Translations under genes and position numbers: made by a program
The notes under the pieces: model-generated
What the model saw: the letters and a program-made list of their open reading frames with translations, nothing else
Databases searched by the model: none
Told to the model about the DNA's origin: nothing
Assembly (NCBI RefSeq): GCF_001463765.1
Contig: NZ_BBWK01000050.1
Span: forward strand, 1-56,504
Reading direction: 5' to 3'
Source of the DNA: Aureimonas sp. AU4
GTDB taxonomy: Bacteria; Pseudomonadota; Alphaproteobacteria; Rhizobiales; Rhizobiaceae
Length of the DNA stretch: 56,504 nucleotides
Shown here: piece after piece, positions 42,365 to 47,967 of the stretch
Position numbering within the stretch: the stretch's first letter is position 1
Layout: each line of letters starts with the position of its first letter

Positions 42365-43270
42365 ATGACGCTCGTCCTCTCCCCCGATGCGGCGCGCCCG
42401 GACGGACGTCTGGCGGTGGCGGCGGGGCTCGCCCTTATCGGCCTTGCGGCGGATCGCTTCGGCGGTGCCGCGCCCTTCCTCTTCGCCGCCGTCCTGATCC
42501 TCGGCCTCGGACTGCCGCACGGGGCGAGCGACCATCTGGCGGCGACCGGCGGTCGGGGAGCGCGCGCGGCGCCGGGACGCCTGGGCCTGTTTCTTGCCCT
42601 CTACCTTGCGGCAGCCGCGCTGACGCTTCTTCTCTGGCAACGCGCGCCCGGCGCGGCGCTGGCGGCCTTTCTCGTGCTGTCGGCCGTTCATTTCGGGCTC
42701 GACGACGTGTCCGAGGTGCCCTGGCACCGCCATCTGCCGGAACGGATCGCGCGGGGCCTGATGCCCGTCACCCTGCCCGCCCTTCTGCACAAGGAGGCGC
42801 TGGCGCACCTCTTCGCCGCGCTGTCGACGGACGGGGACGGCGCGGCGCTGGCCCGGATCGCGGCCACGCTTGCGCCCTTCGTGCTCGCGCTGGCGATGCT
42901 CGTCGCGCTCACGCGTCTCCTGCGCGCCGAGCGCGAGGCGGCGGCCGAGATAGCGTTCGGCGCCGTGGCGCTCGTGTTCCTGTCGCCGCTCGTCGGCTTC
43001 GCGCTCGTCTTCGCGCTGATCCACAGCCGGGGCCAGACGCGCGAGCGCATCGCCCTCCTTCGCCTGCCCGGCCTTTCGGCGTACCTTCGCGCCTGCGCGC
43101 CGACGCTTCTGGGCGCGGCCTTCCTGTTCGGGATGCTCGCCCTCCTGTTCGCCGGGGGACGCGCCCCGGCGCTCGGCCCCTTGTTCGTGGGCCTGGCGGC
43201 GCTCACCGTGCCGCACATGCTGGTGACGCCGCTGTTTGAACGCGCTGCGGGACGGTCGGCGCGCTGCGTG
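42365..43270 (+). CDS. blh: Blh/Brp-type beta-carotene 15,15-prime-dioxygenase, atypical C-terminus
   Basis: Retinal-forming membrane enzyme. Recognisable motifs: GLPHGASDHL (His52), VHFGLDDVSEVPWHRHLPERI, LIHSRGQTRER and LTVPHMLVTPLFER. Family members have HSxRHT in the third motif; here the second His is Gln (HSRGQT), so one of four His reported essential in the marine homologue is missing. The reading frame has no stop until 43540, running 266 nt into the antisense of the convergent YcaO gene, with non-conserved Arg/Pro/Gly-rich residues. I set the end near 43270, where homology stops and where a one-base shift would give a TGA. Activity is uncertain; retinal could come from elsewhere. Confidence 0.8.
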
Positions 43271-43274
43271 ACGG

Positions 43275-44801
43275 TCAGGCGGCCGCCGCCGCCCCGCCGC
43301 GCTTCAGGATCTGGCCGATATGGTGGGCCTCCGGCTCGCGGTAGAGCGGGTAGAGACGGCCCACCGTGCGGTCGACCTCCGCGGTGTCGAGAAGCGGCTG
43401 GCGCCCGCCGAGCCGGGCCAGCGCCTCCGGCGTCAGGCGCACGGGACGCAGGGTCTCGCTCGGTTCGTCGAAGCGGATCAGCGGGCTGCCGCGCTCGATC
43501 AGGCGGCGCGCGTTGCGCTCGCCGATCCGGTAGTAGCTGACCGTCTCGACCTCGAGCCCCGGCACGATCACCTTGGCGACGCCGACCGAACCGTCACGGG
43601 GCGAGCCGTCCACCACGAGAACGTCGAAGCCGGCTGCCGTCAGGCGCTCCACCGCGATGCGCCCGCGCTCGCGCGTGTCCGTGACGGCGGCCTGCGGCAG
43701 GTCGGCGAAGCGATGCGTCGAGCGCACGGCGTAGACGTCGGCCAGCTCGCGCCTGAGGTCGTCGGCGTCCATCGTGGTCCAGCTGAGCATGGCGTCGCGC
43801 GCCCGGTTCTCGCCGCCGTCGAGGCTGACCTGCGCGGCCCGGAGGAAGTCGTCGATATAGCCGGCGGGCGCGACGCTCGATGCCTCCTCCTCGGGCCCGA
43901 AGGCGTAGGTCTTGCGCACGCGCGCCGAGCAGAATTCCATCAGAGCCTTGCGCAGCGCCGCATTGCGGTCGGGGTCGCAGGCCTCGCCGCAGGCCGACAG
44001 CATGACCGGCACGCGCGGCCCCGCGCCCTCGCGGTCATGGCCGACGACGTAGAGGTTGGCGAAGCCGAACTCATCGGAGGCAAATTTCGGGATCGCCTCG
44101 ATGCCCTCTTGGTCGAGGCGGTCCATCAGCTCGCGGACGTCGGGCTCGAGGTCGGCCGGGTCGATGGCGAGAGCGATGCCGCGATCCATCGCGCGGAAGC
44201 CGAGGCCGTTGCCGTCGCGCTGGAGGAGCTCGAAGATACCGTGGCCGACCGCCCATTCGAGGTCGGGCCCCGCGCCGAGGCCGTTGGTGATCAGCGGCGT
44301 GAAGGGCTGGTAGCCCGGCGGAAGCTCGAAGAAGTCGGTGGCCGCGATGTCGAGCGGCACGAGGACGCTCTCGCCCGTTGTCCAGCGCCGGGCCGCCGTC
44401 CAGGCGAGGCGCGTGTCGCGGTCCACCGGCGAGCCCGCCGGCAGGCACAGCGTCAGCGGGTCGGCGACGCCGGAGGCGCCCCGCTCGGTGCTGAGCTCGT
44501 GGTAGCTGCCCCAGACCACCGGCTCGCCCATCAGGCGCAGCGTCGGCAGGAGCATCTCGGCGACCTCCGCGAAGGCGCCGATGATCGCCTGGTCGCGCGT
44601 GGCGCCGTAGCCGTAGCCGGACGGCATGTTGCCGGGCATGGCGGCGGCGTCGTCCAGGAAAAGCGCCGCCTTCCAGGCGTGGACGCCGGTGCGGTCGAGC
44701 CCCTCCAGCGCGAAGGTGACGACGCGGCCGGGCGGAAAGGCCTCGCGGTAGCGGCGCGCCGCCTCCGGCAGGTCGTCGGGCAGGATGTCGTCGGGGCGCA
44801 T
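43275..44801 (-). CDS. YcaO-domain protein linked to a sugar ABC importer
   Basis: 508 residues of the YcaO superfamily, ATP-dependent enzymes that activate amide backbones (azoline, thioamide or amidine formation). ATP-site motifs appear in order: GYGYGATRDQAIIGAFAEVAEML (ExxE) at about 62-86, ITNGLGAGPDLEWAVGHGIFELLQRDG at about 170-197, and CDPDRNAALRKALMEFCSAR at about 280-300. There is no C-terminal Pro-rich PxPxP tail as in RiPP cyclodehydratases, and no TfuA, E1-like partner or precursor peptide gene is seen nearby. It is the last gene of an importer operon (18 nt after the second permease). Its role there is unknown: modifying a peptide or amide substrate brought in, or a component of the transporter, are inferences. 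Confidence 0.88.
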   Translation of the reverse strand: MRPDDILPDDLPEAARRYREAFPPGRVVTFALEGLDRTGVHAWKAALFLDDAAAMPGNMPSGYGYGATRDQAIIGAFAEVAEMLLPTLRLMGEPVVWGSYHELSTERGASGVADPLTLCLPAGSPVDRDTRLAWTAARRWTTGESVLVPLDIAATDFFELPPGYQPFTPLITNGLGAGPDLEWAVGHGIFELLQRDGNGLGFRAMDRGIALAIDPADLEPDVRELMDRLDQEGIEAIPKFASDEFGFANLYVVGHDREGAGPRVPVMLSACGEACDPDRNAALRKALMEFCSARVRKTYAFGPEEEASSVAPAGYIDDFLRAAQVSLDGGENRARDAMLSWTTMDADDLRRELADVYAVRSTHRFADLPQAAVTDTRERGRIAVERLTAAGFDVLVVDGSPRDGSVGVAKVIVPGLEVETVSYYRIGERNARRLIERGSPLIRFDEPSETLRPVRLTPEALARLGGRQPLLDTAEVDRTVGRLYPLYREPEAHHIGQILKRGGAAAAA

Positions 44802-44819
44802 GGGTGGGTCTTTCGTCTG

Positions 44820-45818
44820 TCAGGTGCCCGCCTGGGGCGGATGGGGCGCTTCCGGCGCGGGGCGGTGGGTGGCCGCGCTCTGGAGGTAGTGGCGCTGCGT
44901 CAGGAGGAAGAGCACCACCACGGGCAGGATGGTGACCACGATCGCGGCCTGCTGGAGCGACAGGTTGCGCTGGTCCTCGAAGGCGCTGCGCAGGAGGTAG
45001 ACGCCGATCGGCGCGGTCTGCAGCTCGGGCGCTGAGCGCGTCACGGTGAGCGTCCAGATCACCTCGTTCCAGTGGTAGATGAAGACGAAGACGCCGAGGA
45101 TGGTGAGCGCGGGGCGCACGATCGGCACCACGATGCGCCAGAAGATCGCCCACTCCCCCGCCCCGTCCATGCGCCCGGCCTCGATGATGTCGGTGGGAAC
45201 GCCGACGATGAACTGGCGCATCATGAAGATGCCGTACCAGCTCAGGACGAAGGGCAGGACCAGCGCGGGATAGGTGTTCAGGAGGCCCGTGCCGCCCGAG
45301 CCCGTCCAGTCGTTTCCGCCGAGGAGCGGCACGTAGCGCAGCATGAAGAAGGTCGGGATGATCAGGAGAAAGAAGGGAAAGAGCTGCGCGCCGAGCACGA
45401 AGCGCAGGATCCAGTCCCGCCCCCGGAACTCGAACTTCGCCAGCGCATAGGCCGCCATGGTGGAGGTGAGGAGCTGGCAGGCGGTGATGGCCAGCGTCAC
45501 CACCACGCTGTTGAAGAGCCACAGCGCGAGCGGCAGCGTCTCGAAGACGAGGCGGAAGTTCCCCCATTGCGGATCGGCGGGAAAGTAGACCGGCGGGCGC
45601 GCCAAGCGCTCGGCGGGCGAGCGCAGCGCGCCGAGCAGCATGTCGCCGAAGGGCACGAGCATGACGACGGCGCCGAGCGCGAGAAGAACGACCGGCACGA
45701 GGCGTCCGCGCCGCACGCGCAGGAGTTTGCGCCAGCGCAGGCGGCGCGCCCGCGCGGGCGCCGTTCCCTCCCCGGCCGGCCCTTCCGCCAGGCGCGGCGT
45801 GACGGGCGCGACGCTCAC
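44820..45818 (-). CDS. Carbohydrate ABC transporter permease (MalG-like)
   Basis: 332 residues, an N-terminal extension of about 40 residues and six transmembrane helices. The EAA loop that docks the ATPase is EAGRMDGAGEWAIFWRIVVPIVRP. WLFNSVVVTLAITACQLLTSTMAAYAL and the C-terminal hydrophobic block fit the CUT1 family. It pairs with the MalF-like permease just upstream, whose stop overlaps its start (ATGA). Substrate unknown, probably an oligosaccharide or glycerol derivative by class. Confidence 0.94.
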   Translation of the reverse strand: MSVAPVTPRLAEGPAGEGTAPARARRLRWRKLLRVRRGRLVPVVLLALGAVVMLVPFGDMLLGALRSPAERLARPPVYFPADPQWGNFRLVFETLPLALWLFNSVVVTLAITACQLLTSTMAAYALAKFEFRGRDWILRFVLGAQLFPFFLLIIPTFFMLRYVPLLGGNDWTGSGGTGLLNTYPALVLPFVLSWYGIFMMRQFIVGVPTDIIEAGRMDGAGEWAIFWRIVVPIVRPALTILGVFVFIYHWNEVIWTLTVTRSAPELQTAPIGVYLLRSAFEDQRNLSLQQAAIVVTILPVVVLFLLTQRHYLQSAATHRPAPEAPHPPQAGT

Positions 45819-46690
45819 GCCCAGCCCTCGACGCCGCCGCGCCGCATGACGCGCAGCTGGATCGCGGAAAGCAGCATCACCACGAAGAGGAGGATGTAGG
45901 CGGCGGCGGACGCCATCCCGAGCTTCAGCTCCGAGAAGGCGAGCTCGTACATGCGCAGCGCCGCCGTGCGCGTCGAGTTCACCGGCCCGCCCTCGGTCAG
46001 GATCAGCATGAGCGCGAAGTAGCCGACGCCCCGGATGAGGTTCGACAGCGTGACGAAGAGCATGGTGGGGGCGAGAAGCGGCAGCGTCACGTGCCGGAAG
46101 GTGCGCCAGCCGGACGCCCCGTCCATGCGCGCGGCCTCTTCGATGCTGCTATCCAGGCCGTTCAGCCCGGCCAGGAACAGCATCATGTCCTGCCCGACCT
46201 GGAACCACAGGAACACGAGGACCAGCGAGAGCATCGCCCAGTCGGGGTCGAGCAGCCACGAGGGACCGGCGACGCCCAGGAAGGCGAGGAAGCGGTTCAC
46301 GAGGCCATAGGGGTCGTCGAGGATCTGCTTCCAGACGTAGGAGACCGCGACGACGTTAGTAATCATCGGCAGCCAGTAGATCGCCTGCCAGACGCTGGCG
46401 ATGCGCGAGCGCCGGATGGCGAGCGCCAAGGCCAGCGCCAGCGGCACGCCGAGAAGGATCGTGAGGCCTACGAAGCGCGCCGTGTTCCAGAGCGCGGTGT
46501 GGAACACGGGATCGACGGCGAGGAGGTAGCGGTAGTTCTGCCAGCCCACCAGCCGGAAGGCGCCGAGCGAGTTCCAGCTCGCAAAGCTCAACACCAGCGA
46601 GAAGAGGAGCGGGCCGACGAAGAACAGGAGCCCGAACACGAAGACGGGCGCCAGGAAGACGTAGGGCGCGGTGCGCCGCGTGAGCGTCAC
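45815..46690 (-). CDS. Carbohydrate ABC transporter permease (MalF-like)
   Basis: 291 residues with six helices: YVFLAPVFVFGLLFFVGPLLFSLVLSF at the N-terminus and the EAA loop EEAARMDGASGWRTFRHVTLPLLAP. It belongs to the CUT1 sugar permeases. Start ATG at 46690 lies 14 nt after the binding-protein stop, and its end overlaps the next gene. The operon has no nucleotide-binding subunit; a shared MsmX/UgpC-like ATPase encoded elsewhere is expected. Confidence 0.94.
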   Translation of the reverse strand: MTLTRRTAPYVFLAPVFVFGLLFFVGPLLFSLVLSFASWNSLGAFRLVGWQNYRYLLAVDPVFHTALWNTARFVGLTILLGVPLALALALAIRRSRIASVWQAIYWLPMITNVVAVSYVWKQILDDPYGLVNRFLAFLGVAGPSWLLDPDWAMLSLVLVFLWFQVGQDMMLFLAGLNGLDSSIEEAARMDGASGWRTFRHVTLPLLAPTMLFVTLSNLIRGVGYFALMLILTEGGPVNSTRTAALRMYELAFSELKLGMASAAAYILLFVVMLLSAIQLRVMRRGGVEGWA

Positions 46691-46704
46691 CGCCCCCTAG
46701 CCTC

Positions 46705-47967
46705 TCACGGCTCCGCCAGGATGGCCGAGATGCGCGCGTCGGCGGCGCTCATCGCGTCCGCGCCGGTCTTGCGGCCGAGCCAGGCCTCCTCGATCTCGGT
46801 GCGCAGCACCTGGTCGATCGCCGTGGTCTGGCGCAGGTTCGTGGTGGTTACGGCCCGGCCCGAGGCGAGCGCGTCGACATAGGGCTTGGTGAAGGGGTCG
46901 CTGTATTCGGCCGTGCTCGCCGCGATGTCGCCCTTGTTGGCCGAGAGCGAGCCGAGGCGCACCAGCATGTCGCCGACGCAGGAGCGCTTGCCCTCGCCGC
47001 GCGGCTCGTTCAGCCAGCGCAGGAGCTTCCAGGCCGCCTCGCCGTTCGGGCTCTCGGCCGCGACCGACTGGTAGAAGGCGTACTGGTACGTCTTCCAGTC
47101 CGCGCCGCCGGGAATCGGCGCGACGCCGACCGTGTCGGCGAAGGCGTCGCCCAGACCGTCGCGCAGGTCCTTCTTCAGCCAGTTGGCGCCGATGAACATG
47201 CCGACCTGGCCGGAGGCGAAGTCCTGCCACTTGTTGGCGGGCGAGGTCGACTTGTCGGCGAAGAGCTTGGCCTCGCCGTCGACGATGGCGACCGCGCGCG
47301 GATCGGTGAGGTTGGTCGTGGTGGCGTCGGGATCGACGAGCTGGAGACCTTGCGAGAACATCAGCGCGCGCAGGGGATGGGTCGCGTTGGCGACCGTCGG
47401 CCCGAAGGCGTAGCCGGCCGTGGTCACGCGGCCGAGCTCGTCCTGCTTGGCGATCTTGGCGGCGGCCTCGAGGACGCCGTTCCAGTCGGTCGGCGGGGTC
47501 GTGATCCCGGCTTGGCTGAACAGCTTCTTGTTGTAGACCAGCATGTAGAGCGAGACCTCGGCCGGAATGCCCCAGATCTTGCCGTCGACGCGCGAGGCCT
47601 CGACCGTGGTCGGCTCGAAGCGCTCCTTCAACATGTCGAGGACGTCGGCCGGCGGCTCGGCCAGGACGTTGTTGGCGACCAGCTCGCCGCCGAGGTTGGA
47701 ATAGACGTTCAGGATGTCGGGCAGCGTGCCGGCGAGGCGCGAGGTCTGGAGCGCCGGCAGGAAGTCGGCGAGCGCCACCTGCTGGTACTGGACGGTGGTG
47801 CCCGGGTTCTGCTTCTCGTAGTCGCGGAAGCAGGCCGTCAGCGGCACCATCTCCTCGTCGGTATAGTGGGCGGCGTATCGCAGCGTGACGCTCTGCGCCG
47901 AGACCGGAAGCGCGGCTCCCGCACTCAGGAGCGAGGCCATGGCCAGCGTTGCGATCCTCTGCTTCAT
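46705..47967 (-). CDS. Carbohydrate ABC transporter substrate-binding protein (family 1)
   Basis: 420 residues. Signal peptide MKQRIATLAMASLLSAGAAL with cleavage after VSA-Q. The mature protein is a cluster B, family 1 binding protein: VTLRYAAHYTDEEMVPLTACF, LADFLPALQTSRLAGTLPDILNV, GIPAEVSLYMLVYNKKLF, WNGVLEAAAKIAKQ, FASGQVGMFIGANWLKKD and a C-terminal helical part. It presents the substrate to the two permeases that follow and is the first gene of the operon that ends with the YcaO gene. A terminator at 48075-48098 separates it from the upstream molybdenum-enzyme gene. Confidence 0.94.
   Translation of the reverse strand: MKQRIATLAMASLLSAGAALPVSAQSVTLRYAAHYTDEEMVPLTACFRDYEKQNPGTTVQYQQVALADFLPALQTSRLAGTLPDILNVYSNLGGELVANNVLAEPPADVLDMLKERFEPTTVEASRVDGKIWGIPAEVSLYMLVYNKKLFSQAGITTPPTDWNGVLEAAAKIAKQDELGRVTTAGYAFGPTVANATHPLRALMFSQGLQLVDPDATTTNLTDPRAVAIVDGEAKLFADKSTSPANKWQDFASGQVGMFIGANWLKKDLRDGLGDAFADTVGVAPIPGGADWKTYQYAFYQSVAAESPNGEAAWKLLRWLNEPRGEGKRSCVGDMLVRLGSLSANKGDIAASTAEYSDPFTKPYVDALASGRAVTTTNLRQTTAIDQVLRTEIEEAWLGRKTGADAMSAADARISAILAEP

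Follow-up and report, generated by a model that had tools for sequence, protein, structure and literature searches.

A YcaO-domain enzyme encoded beside a CUT1-type importer in Aureimonas sp. AU4 and, in relatives, within a cluster for a putative cyclitol glycoside

YcaO enzymes serve as markers of ribosomally synthesized and post-translationally modified peptides (RiPPs). In this study, we examine a YcaO subfamily whose genes lie either in a putative sugar-cyclitol cluster or beside a carbohydrate importer, beginning with a locus of Aureimonas sp. AU4 (contig NZ_BBWK01000050.1). The window is the whole stretch of DNA that was analysed, 56,504 nucleotides in length. On its minus strand, from position 47967 to 43275, genes for a solute-binding protein, two CUT1-type permeases and a YcaO-domain enzyme form one tight run. 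On our best reading of the comparison with related genomes, the YcaO has two alternative partners, of which the importer is one.

Results

The first gene of the run encodes an extracellular solute-binding protein (SBP) of CUT1 type, 420 residues long (46705-47967; PF01547 101.5 bits, PF13416 81.9 bits). It is followed on the same strand by genes for a UgpA/MalF-like permease of 291 residues (45815-46690; PF00528 68.7 bits), a UgpE/MalG-like permease of 332 residues (44820-45818; PF00528 63.7 bits) and the YcaO-domain enzyme of 508 residues (43275-44801). The family 1 SBP and the two BPD_transp_1 permeases, all over their Pfam cut-offs, have the make-up of a CUT1 importer, and the linkage of YcaO and importer claimed in a preliminary description of this DNA is confirmed. 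An N-terminal signal peptide is apparent in the SBP when read by eye, and the best PDB sequence matches of this protein are sugar-binding proteins at 56.1 bits or less (best 60 of 63 matches). In NCBIfam, the first permease is closest to UgpA (105.8 bits, under the cut-off of 335) and the second to UgpE (101.3 bits, under the cut-off of 297).

The genes are separated by 14 nt, by an overlap of 4 nt between the permeases, and by 18 nt. Co-transcription of all four is likely because these gaps are so small, and since they leave no space, the run holds no precursor or partner gene: as described previously, the four genes enclose no gene for an ATPase, TfuA, an E1/ThiF-like protein or a precursor (no search for tiny open reading frames (ORFs) was made beyond the run). 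The permease overlap had been given as ATGA; the 4 nt are real, and their letters are GTGA. An FdhF/YdeP oxidoreductase gene flanks the run upstream, with a gap of ~155 nt 5' of the SBP gene, and a convergent BCD-family gene flanks it downstream. Neither the run nor these two flanking genes include an ATPase gene; CUT1 sets without an ATPase gene of their own are common and shared ATPases are usual, so the lack is not odd. No second YcaO was found in the AU4 genome (E <= 0.001).

The window protein is a YcaO by profile and by fold. It matches PF02624 at 170 bits, as compared to a gathering score of 25.7, with the match spanning profile positions 2-325 of 325, and its predicted structure has the YcaO fold. 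The nearest solved folds are the YcaOs of Methanocaldococcus jannaschii and Methanopyrus kandleri; LynD and TruD are also structural neighbours, and the solved structures matched include 7u58, a YcaO that acts as an ATP-dependent peptidase. By curated cut-offs, the protein lies outside the azoline-forming YcaOs (TIGR03604, 106 of 219.25 bits), the YcaOs of McrA-glycine thioamidation (TIGR03266, 70.1 of 365 bits) and the YcaO-type kinase domain (TIGR00702, 56.5 of 75.65 bits). An azoline-forming RiPP operon was also considered and rejected, as the run has no precursor peptide or E1/ocin-ThiF partner and its neighbours belong to the FdhF and BCD families. The absence of any precursor or partner gene in the run agrees with the preliminary description, which saw no precursor peptide, TfuA or E1-like partner.

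The acids of the two ExxE motifs of YcaO enzymes have metal and ATP roles. In the window protein, ExxE (E79, E82) and E191 are retained and Gln (Q194) replaces the second Glu usual in ExxERD, so that the ATP motifs previously called intact are intact at three of four acids. The resulting ExxQRDGN is a clade signature. Gln occupies the fourth position in all 78 proteins extracted from loci L002-L081 (2 of the 80 loci were unextracted) and so too in the proteins of Roseomonas, Hymenobacter and G777, whereas the other YcaOs compared show ExxER: Glu is present in E. coli YcaO, MJ1094, the M. kandleri protein and LynD, and in six of seven other order-level YcaOs, the seventh (L111) having no pattern match. 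The clade also has a conserved C-terminus, YPLYREPE, in place of the PxPxP end that is the C-terminal motif of azoline-forming YcaOs.

YcaO relatives were collected by a scan of public genomes, and the counts of loci given here refer to the best 80 of 104 confirmed relatives. The SBP and both permeases lie beside the YcaO gene in 11 of the 80, namely six Aureimonas loci including A. jatrophae, one Aurantimonadaceae bin, one Antarcticirhabdus and three Microvirga; the importer link therefore recurs beyond AU4. A. jatrophae carries the same run as the window at 90-96% identity and alone shares its co-directional order. Since 10 of the 11 ABC-linked loci have importer and YcaO in convergent orientation, the single co-directional operon is a local rearrangement, and the neighbourhood outlived it. 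Thus, of the operon proposed previously, the linkage is what is kept across lineages, and the likely co-transcription belongs to an arrangement found in one relative only. At scores above 580 bits, the YcaO was found in AU4 and eight further genomes, all of one genus, among 397 genomes of the order. In the three Microvirga, small ORFs and a polysaccharide-deacetylase gene lie between importer and YcaO; the latter ends the importer run where cluster carriers (below) have PIG-L, and its product perhaps does PIG-L's job on imported material. In 4 of the 11 importer loci (L006, L007, L009, L019), chemoreceptor (MCP) genes occur close to importer and YcaO, perhaps for chemotaxis toward the same ligand.

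In 68 of the 80 loci, the YcaO gene lies in a same-strand cluster with at least MocA and a TIM barrel. The cluster order is Ino1 (inositol-3-phosphate synthase), an HD-type protein, a methyltransferase, a Gfo/Idh/MocA protein, YcaO, a xylose-isomerase-like TIM barrel, a glycosyltransferase of family GT4 and the deacetylase PIG-L, and the carriers are Methylobacterium, Methylorubrum, Lichenibacterium, and binned and other relatives. All seven YcaO partners are visible in 60 of these loci, and seven of the remaining eight are short stretches that end at contig ends. PIG-L is followed by a uracil-DNA-glycosylase-family gene in 57 of the 68. The HD-type protein, of 306 residues, has no Pfam family over cut-off; its fold is predicted to be of HD type (pLDDT 85.2), the most probable matches being HDDC2 and then YfbR-like phosphohydrolases, and RefSeq labels its Hymenobacter counterpart an HD-domain protein. 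Removal of phosphate from inositol phosphate would fit such a fold.

The family is rare in wider samples. Among 72,556 plasmid records, 4 hold the HD gene, and these same four carry the clade YcaO (two Methylobacterium, Roseomonas haemaphysalidis, and Hymenobacter volaticus of the Bacteroidota), and the protein occurs in 2 of 385 genomes of the window's class. The Roseomonas, Hymenobacter and G777 (alphaproteobacterial) clusters have an extra metallo-beta-lactamase (MBL)-fold gene before YcaO. Depending on lineage, MBL-fold genes sit before YcaO or just past PIG-L on the other strand (L130, 9159-10010; L129, 9165-9995; L135, 8462-9289; L125, 12459-13286; L018, 4919-5464); the protein weakly matches a rubredoxin-like stretch, and no MBL-fold match was found in the Methylobacterium stretches. 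Some cluster genes are apparently broken, MocA and GT4 being split in the Hymenobacter plasmid (L129) and the HD gene in G777 (L135).

Importer and cluster were not found together in the genomes searched. At 1e-30, the SBP was absent genome-wide from all 24 cluster-bearing genomes (11 plus a further 13, two sets that may overlap), and the same searches recovered it in importer genomes, which served as positive controls. Six importer genomes held no orthologue of the HD protein and none of GT4, their best GT4 matches being 1e-21 to 5e-15 as compared to 2e-191 and 7e-195 in two cluster genomes of the same search; with that GT4 query, the window's genus gave no match at 1e-60 in any of the 21 genomes searched. 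YcaO and SBP occur in the identical 7 of 21 Aureimonas genomes, and intact YcaO and intact SBP in the identical 3 of 48 Microvirga genomes. The two also decay together: one of the seven Aureimonas (G415) has only a piece of the YcaO, an SBP gene with three stops and a lost second permease, and a fourth Microvirga (G832) has a YcaO remnant and no SBP.

Neither importer nor cluster adjoins the YcaO gene in 1 of the 80 loci, that of A. leprariae. Its YcaO falls inside the Aureimonas importer group in the tree (support 100/99), as sister to that of A. psammosilenae (95/89), and the genome has no SBP at 1e-30. The seven cluster genes, YcaO excepted, lie on a different contig and group with those of Lichenibacterium (100/99). 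The simplest reading would be that A. leprariae exchanged its importer for an acquired pathway and kept the resident YcaO.

Discussion

These results lead us to favour, with a probability of roughly 0.55, the view that the YcaO performs an ATP-dependent tailoring step in a non-RiPP pathway whose substrate, a glycosylated cyclitol, is either made by the cell or imported. Most of the carriers found would make it themselves. Ino1 would supply inositol phosphate, from which the HD protein would remove the phosphate; the MocA-type dehydrogenase, the TIM-barrel isomerase and, in most carriers, the methyltransferase would reshape the ring; GT4 would attach a sugar, and PIG-L would then free the amine of that sugar. 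The steps and their order are inferred from gene content. In the window's lineage and some others, which are without the cluster set, the CUT1 importer would take up the glycoside or its acetylated form, powered by an ATPase encoded elsewhere, and these lineages, with the glycoside coming from outside, would need the YcaO alone. The YcaO would use ATP to phosphorylate a carbonyl oxygen of the compound, which would then be replaced by a nucleophile. Making and importing may thus feed one pathway not described before. No description of an importer-YcaO system was found in the open-access papers searched, in line with the earlier statement that no described system of this composition was known.

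The interpretation given in the preliminary description is partly supported. Its sugar-type ligand fits the replacement of the importer by Ino1, GT4 and PIG-L in relatives. Its other suggestion, a YcaO acting on a transporter part, is unsupported because the same YcaO is cluster-borne in 68 of 80 loci and no SBP occurs in any of the 24 cluster genomes searched.

Several points weigh against the make-or-import reading. A cyclitol glycoside as SBP ligand is a guess, since the SBP is without a close solved relative, and a deacetylase accompanies the importer in Microvirga only. The branching of the Microvirga, Lichenibacterium and Aureimonas types is an open fork (93/89) in a YcaO tree with long branches in the plasmid and G777 rows, and this tree leaves the number of origins of the importer link undecided. 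The exclusion concerns related genomes, many of them Methylobacterium, and, of the cluster genes, GT4 and HD were those sought in importer genomes. The counts of co-occurrence are inflated by shared descent and because adjacent genes travel together. Within the cluster, the fold matches of the HD protein are weak, with none at E <= 0.001; L. minor (L017) has no PIG-L in the fetched stretch and the Hymenobacter cluster no methyltransferase match; and the step assignments are loose because the cluster enzymes, taken from one representative locus (L048), fall far under the cut-offs of named-pathway models.

Known systems resemble this one in parts. MJ1094, the methanogen YcaO of McrA-glycine thioamidation, has Glu where the clade YcaO has Gln in ExxERD, and the clade differs further in that no TfuA was seen and in its sugar-cluster or importer context. 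The YcaOs of the thiazole/oxazole-modified microcin (TOMM)/SagD type, including TruD and LynD, belong to the same superfamily, but differ by score, by the C-terminus and by the E1/ocin-ThiF partner and precursor gene that the run is without. The Erwinia YcaO YcfA, of 6-thioguanine synthesis, acts on a small molecule and not a peptide; it differs in its purine substrate and other partner genes, being set apart here by description and not by sequence. Mycothiol and bacillithiol synthesis (MshA/MshB, BshA/BshB) likewise brings together the fold types of Ino1, GT4 and PIG-L, but YcaO, MocA, TIM barrel and methyltransferase have no part in it, and the L048 cluster misses the mycothiol cut-offs (MshA 89.8 of 462.5 bits, MshB 22.2 of 224.35, mycothiol-type Ino1 43.7 of 638). 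On the import side, the acarbose/maltose-binding protein GacH is a CUT1 binding protein and appears among the sequence matches of the window SBP (E 1e-12), to which it is only distantly related. The GacH importer is linked to a cyclitol oligosaccharide, of the acarbose pathway, and to our knowledge that system has no YcaO.

The product could also be a thiol or thioamide. The cluster would then make a mycothiol-like glycosyl-inositol to which the YcaO adds sulfur or an amide-derived group, yielding a redox cofactor whose scaffold the importers salvage. Ino1, GT4 and PIG-L have the fold types of the first steps of mycothiol synthesis, MshA (89.8 bits) and BshB1 (29 bits) are weakly matched, and the nearest solved folds are YcaOs of two methanogens, species with thioglycine in MCR (PMC5589413). 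We consider this version unlikely, since the cut-offs are far off (MshA 462.5, BshB1 182.5, MshB 224.35), no gene for TfuA or sulfur transfer turned up in the neighbours scanned, and the MocA, TIM-barrel and methyltransferase genes would go unexplained. A catabolic role, in which the YcaO spends ATP on opening or hydrolysing an amide of an imported sugar derivative, would suit the importer linkage and the peptidase activity of 7u58. Genes resembling those of sugar metabolism also occur close to single importer loci: in A. phyllosphaerae (L008) one of the MocA family precedes YcaO, and in A. pseudogalii (L007) one of the enolase superfamily lies beyond the SBP. This role is quite unlikely, however: in 68 of 80 loci the orthologous YcaO belongs to a cluster, which includes Ino1 and GT4 on stretches of sufficient length, and no recurring catabolic gene appeared among the importer-side neighbours scanned, which are part of all. 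Peptides or proteins are the targets of most YcaOs described so far, so a ribosomal protein, a transporter part or a missed precursor might also be the target, with the linkage regulatory or due to chance. McrA thioamidation by a YcaO, in the same report (PMC5589413), is a case in point. The exact co-occurrence and joint decay of YcaO and importer, the biosynthetic-looking context in 68 of 80 loci, the missed RiPP family cut-offs and a run without TfuA, E1-like or precursor gene (the search not extending to tiny ORFs outside it) all make a peptide or protein target very unlikely.

A UV sunscreen would assign other chemistry to the same genes. Inositol would become a methylated cyclohexenone-type ring through MocA oxidation, TIM-barrel dehydration and methylation, the YcaO would phosphorylate a vinylogous acid or amide to which an amine adds, and the end product would be a glycosylated mycosporine-like UV absorber; importer lineages would scavenge the precursor from sunlit neighbours. 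Such a product would fit because vinylogous-amide phosphorylation naturally extends YcaO chemistry. Spore photoproduct lyase (SPL) of one subtype adjoins YcaO in two Microvirga and in A. pseudogalii, and SPL of the same subtype lies ~1.5 kb past the Roseomonas cluster, with 64-69% identity between lineages; UvdE accompanies SPL in Microvirga, and the uracil-DNA-glycosylase-family gene of 57 cluster loci points the same way. Many YcaO carriers belong to what we take to be leaf, air or desert genera, and the Hymenobacter strain came from air. Nevertheless, only 3 of the 11 importer loci have an SPL gene adjoining YcaO and no cluster locus of the 68 does, the source of the Roseomonas strain was a tick, and the Hymenobacter cluster is without a methyltransferase match. 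An EEVS/DHQS-type cyclase and an ATP-grasp ligase belong to the known mycosporine route, and neither was present among the L048 cluster genes scanned. In favour of a sunscreen, two reports describe UVA-absorbing compounds in Methylobacterium (PMC12573535, PMC9664959); the reported compound methylobamine may be unrelated to the cluster. We regard this sunscreen as doubtful, and as unlikely the wider proposal that a new YcaO class (ExxQRDGN) acts on a glycosylated ring derived from inositol, and not on a peptide, and finishes a UVA-absorbing sunscreen by activating a vinylogous carbonyl. Some bacteria of sunlit surfaces would make the scaffold, and others, among them the window's lineage, would import it via a dedicated CUT1 transporter and retain the YcaO step alone, in a shared economy on leaves and in air. 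As a separate observation, Microvirga (L012/L013, 4462-7808) has a run of DHH-domain, UvdE and SPL genes closely upstream of YcaO, with a second SPL several kb beyond, and the run is kept in G832 (L144), where the YcaO is a remnant.

If the make-or-import reading is true, YcaO chemistry reaches a new substrate class, and YcaO genes that resemble RiPP clusters yet have no precursor are explained. The cluster context, in Methylobacteriaceae and on plasmids reaching the Bacteroidota, and the importer context, in other lineages, would then provide a testable case in which bacteria of shared habitats either make or import the same specialised metabolite.

Neighbouring genes

The BCD-family (beta-carotene dioxygenase-like) frame downstream of the run lies on the plus strand (42440-43540) and adjoins a rhodopsin gene. 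With its stop only at 43540, it overlaps the 3' end of the YcaO gene by ~266 nt, possibly because a stop was lost or the sequence contains an error. The parts of the BCD-family frame and of the YcaO gene that are matched in A. jatrophae (L002) do not overlap there.

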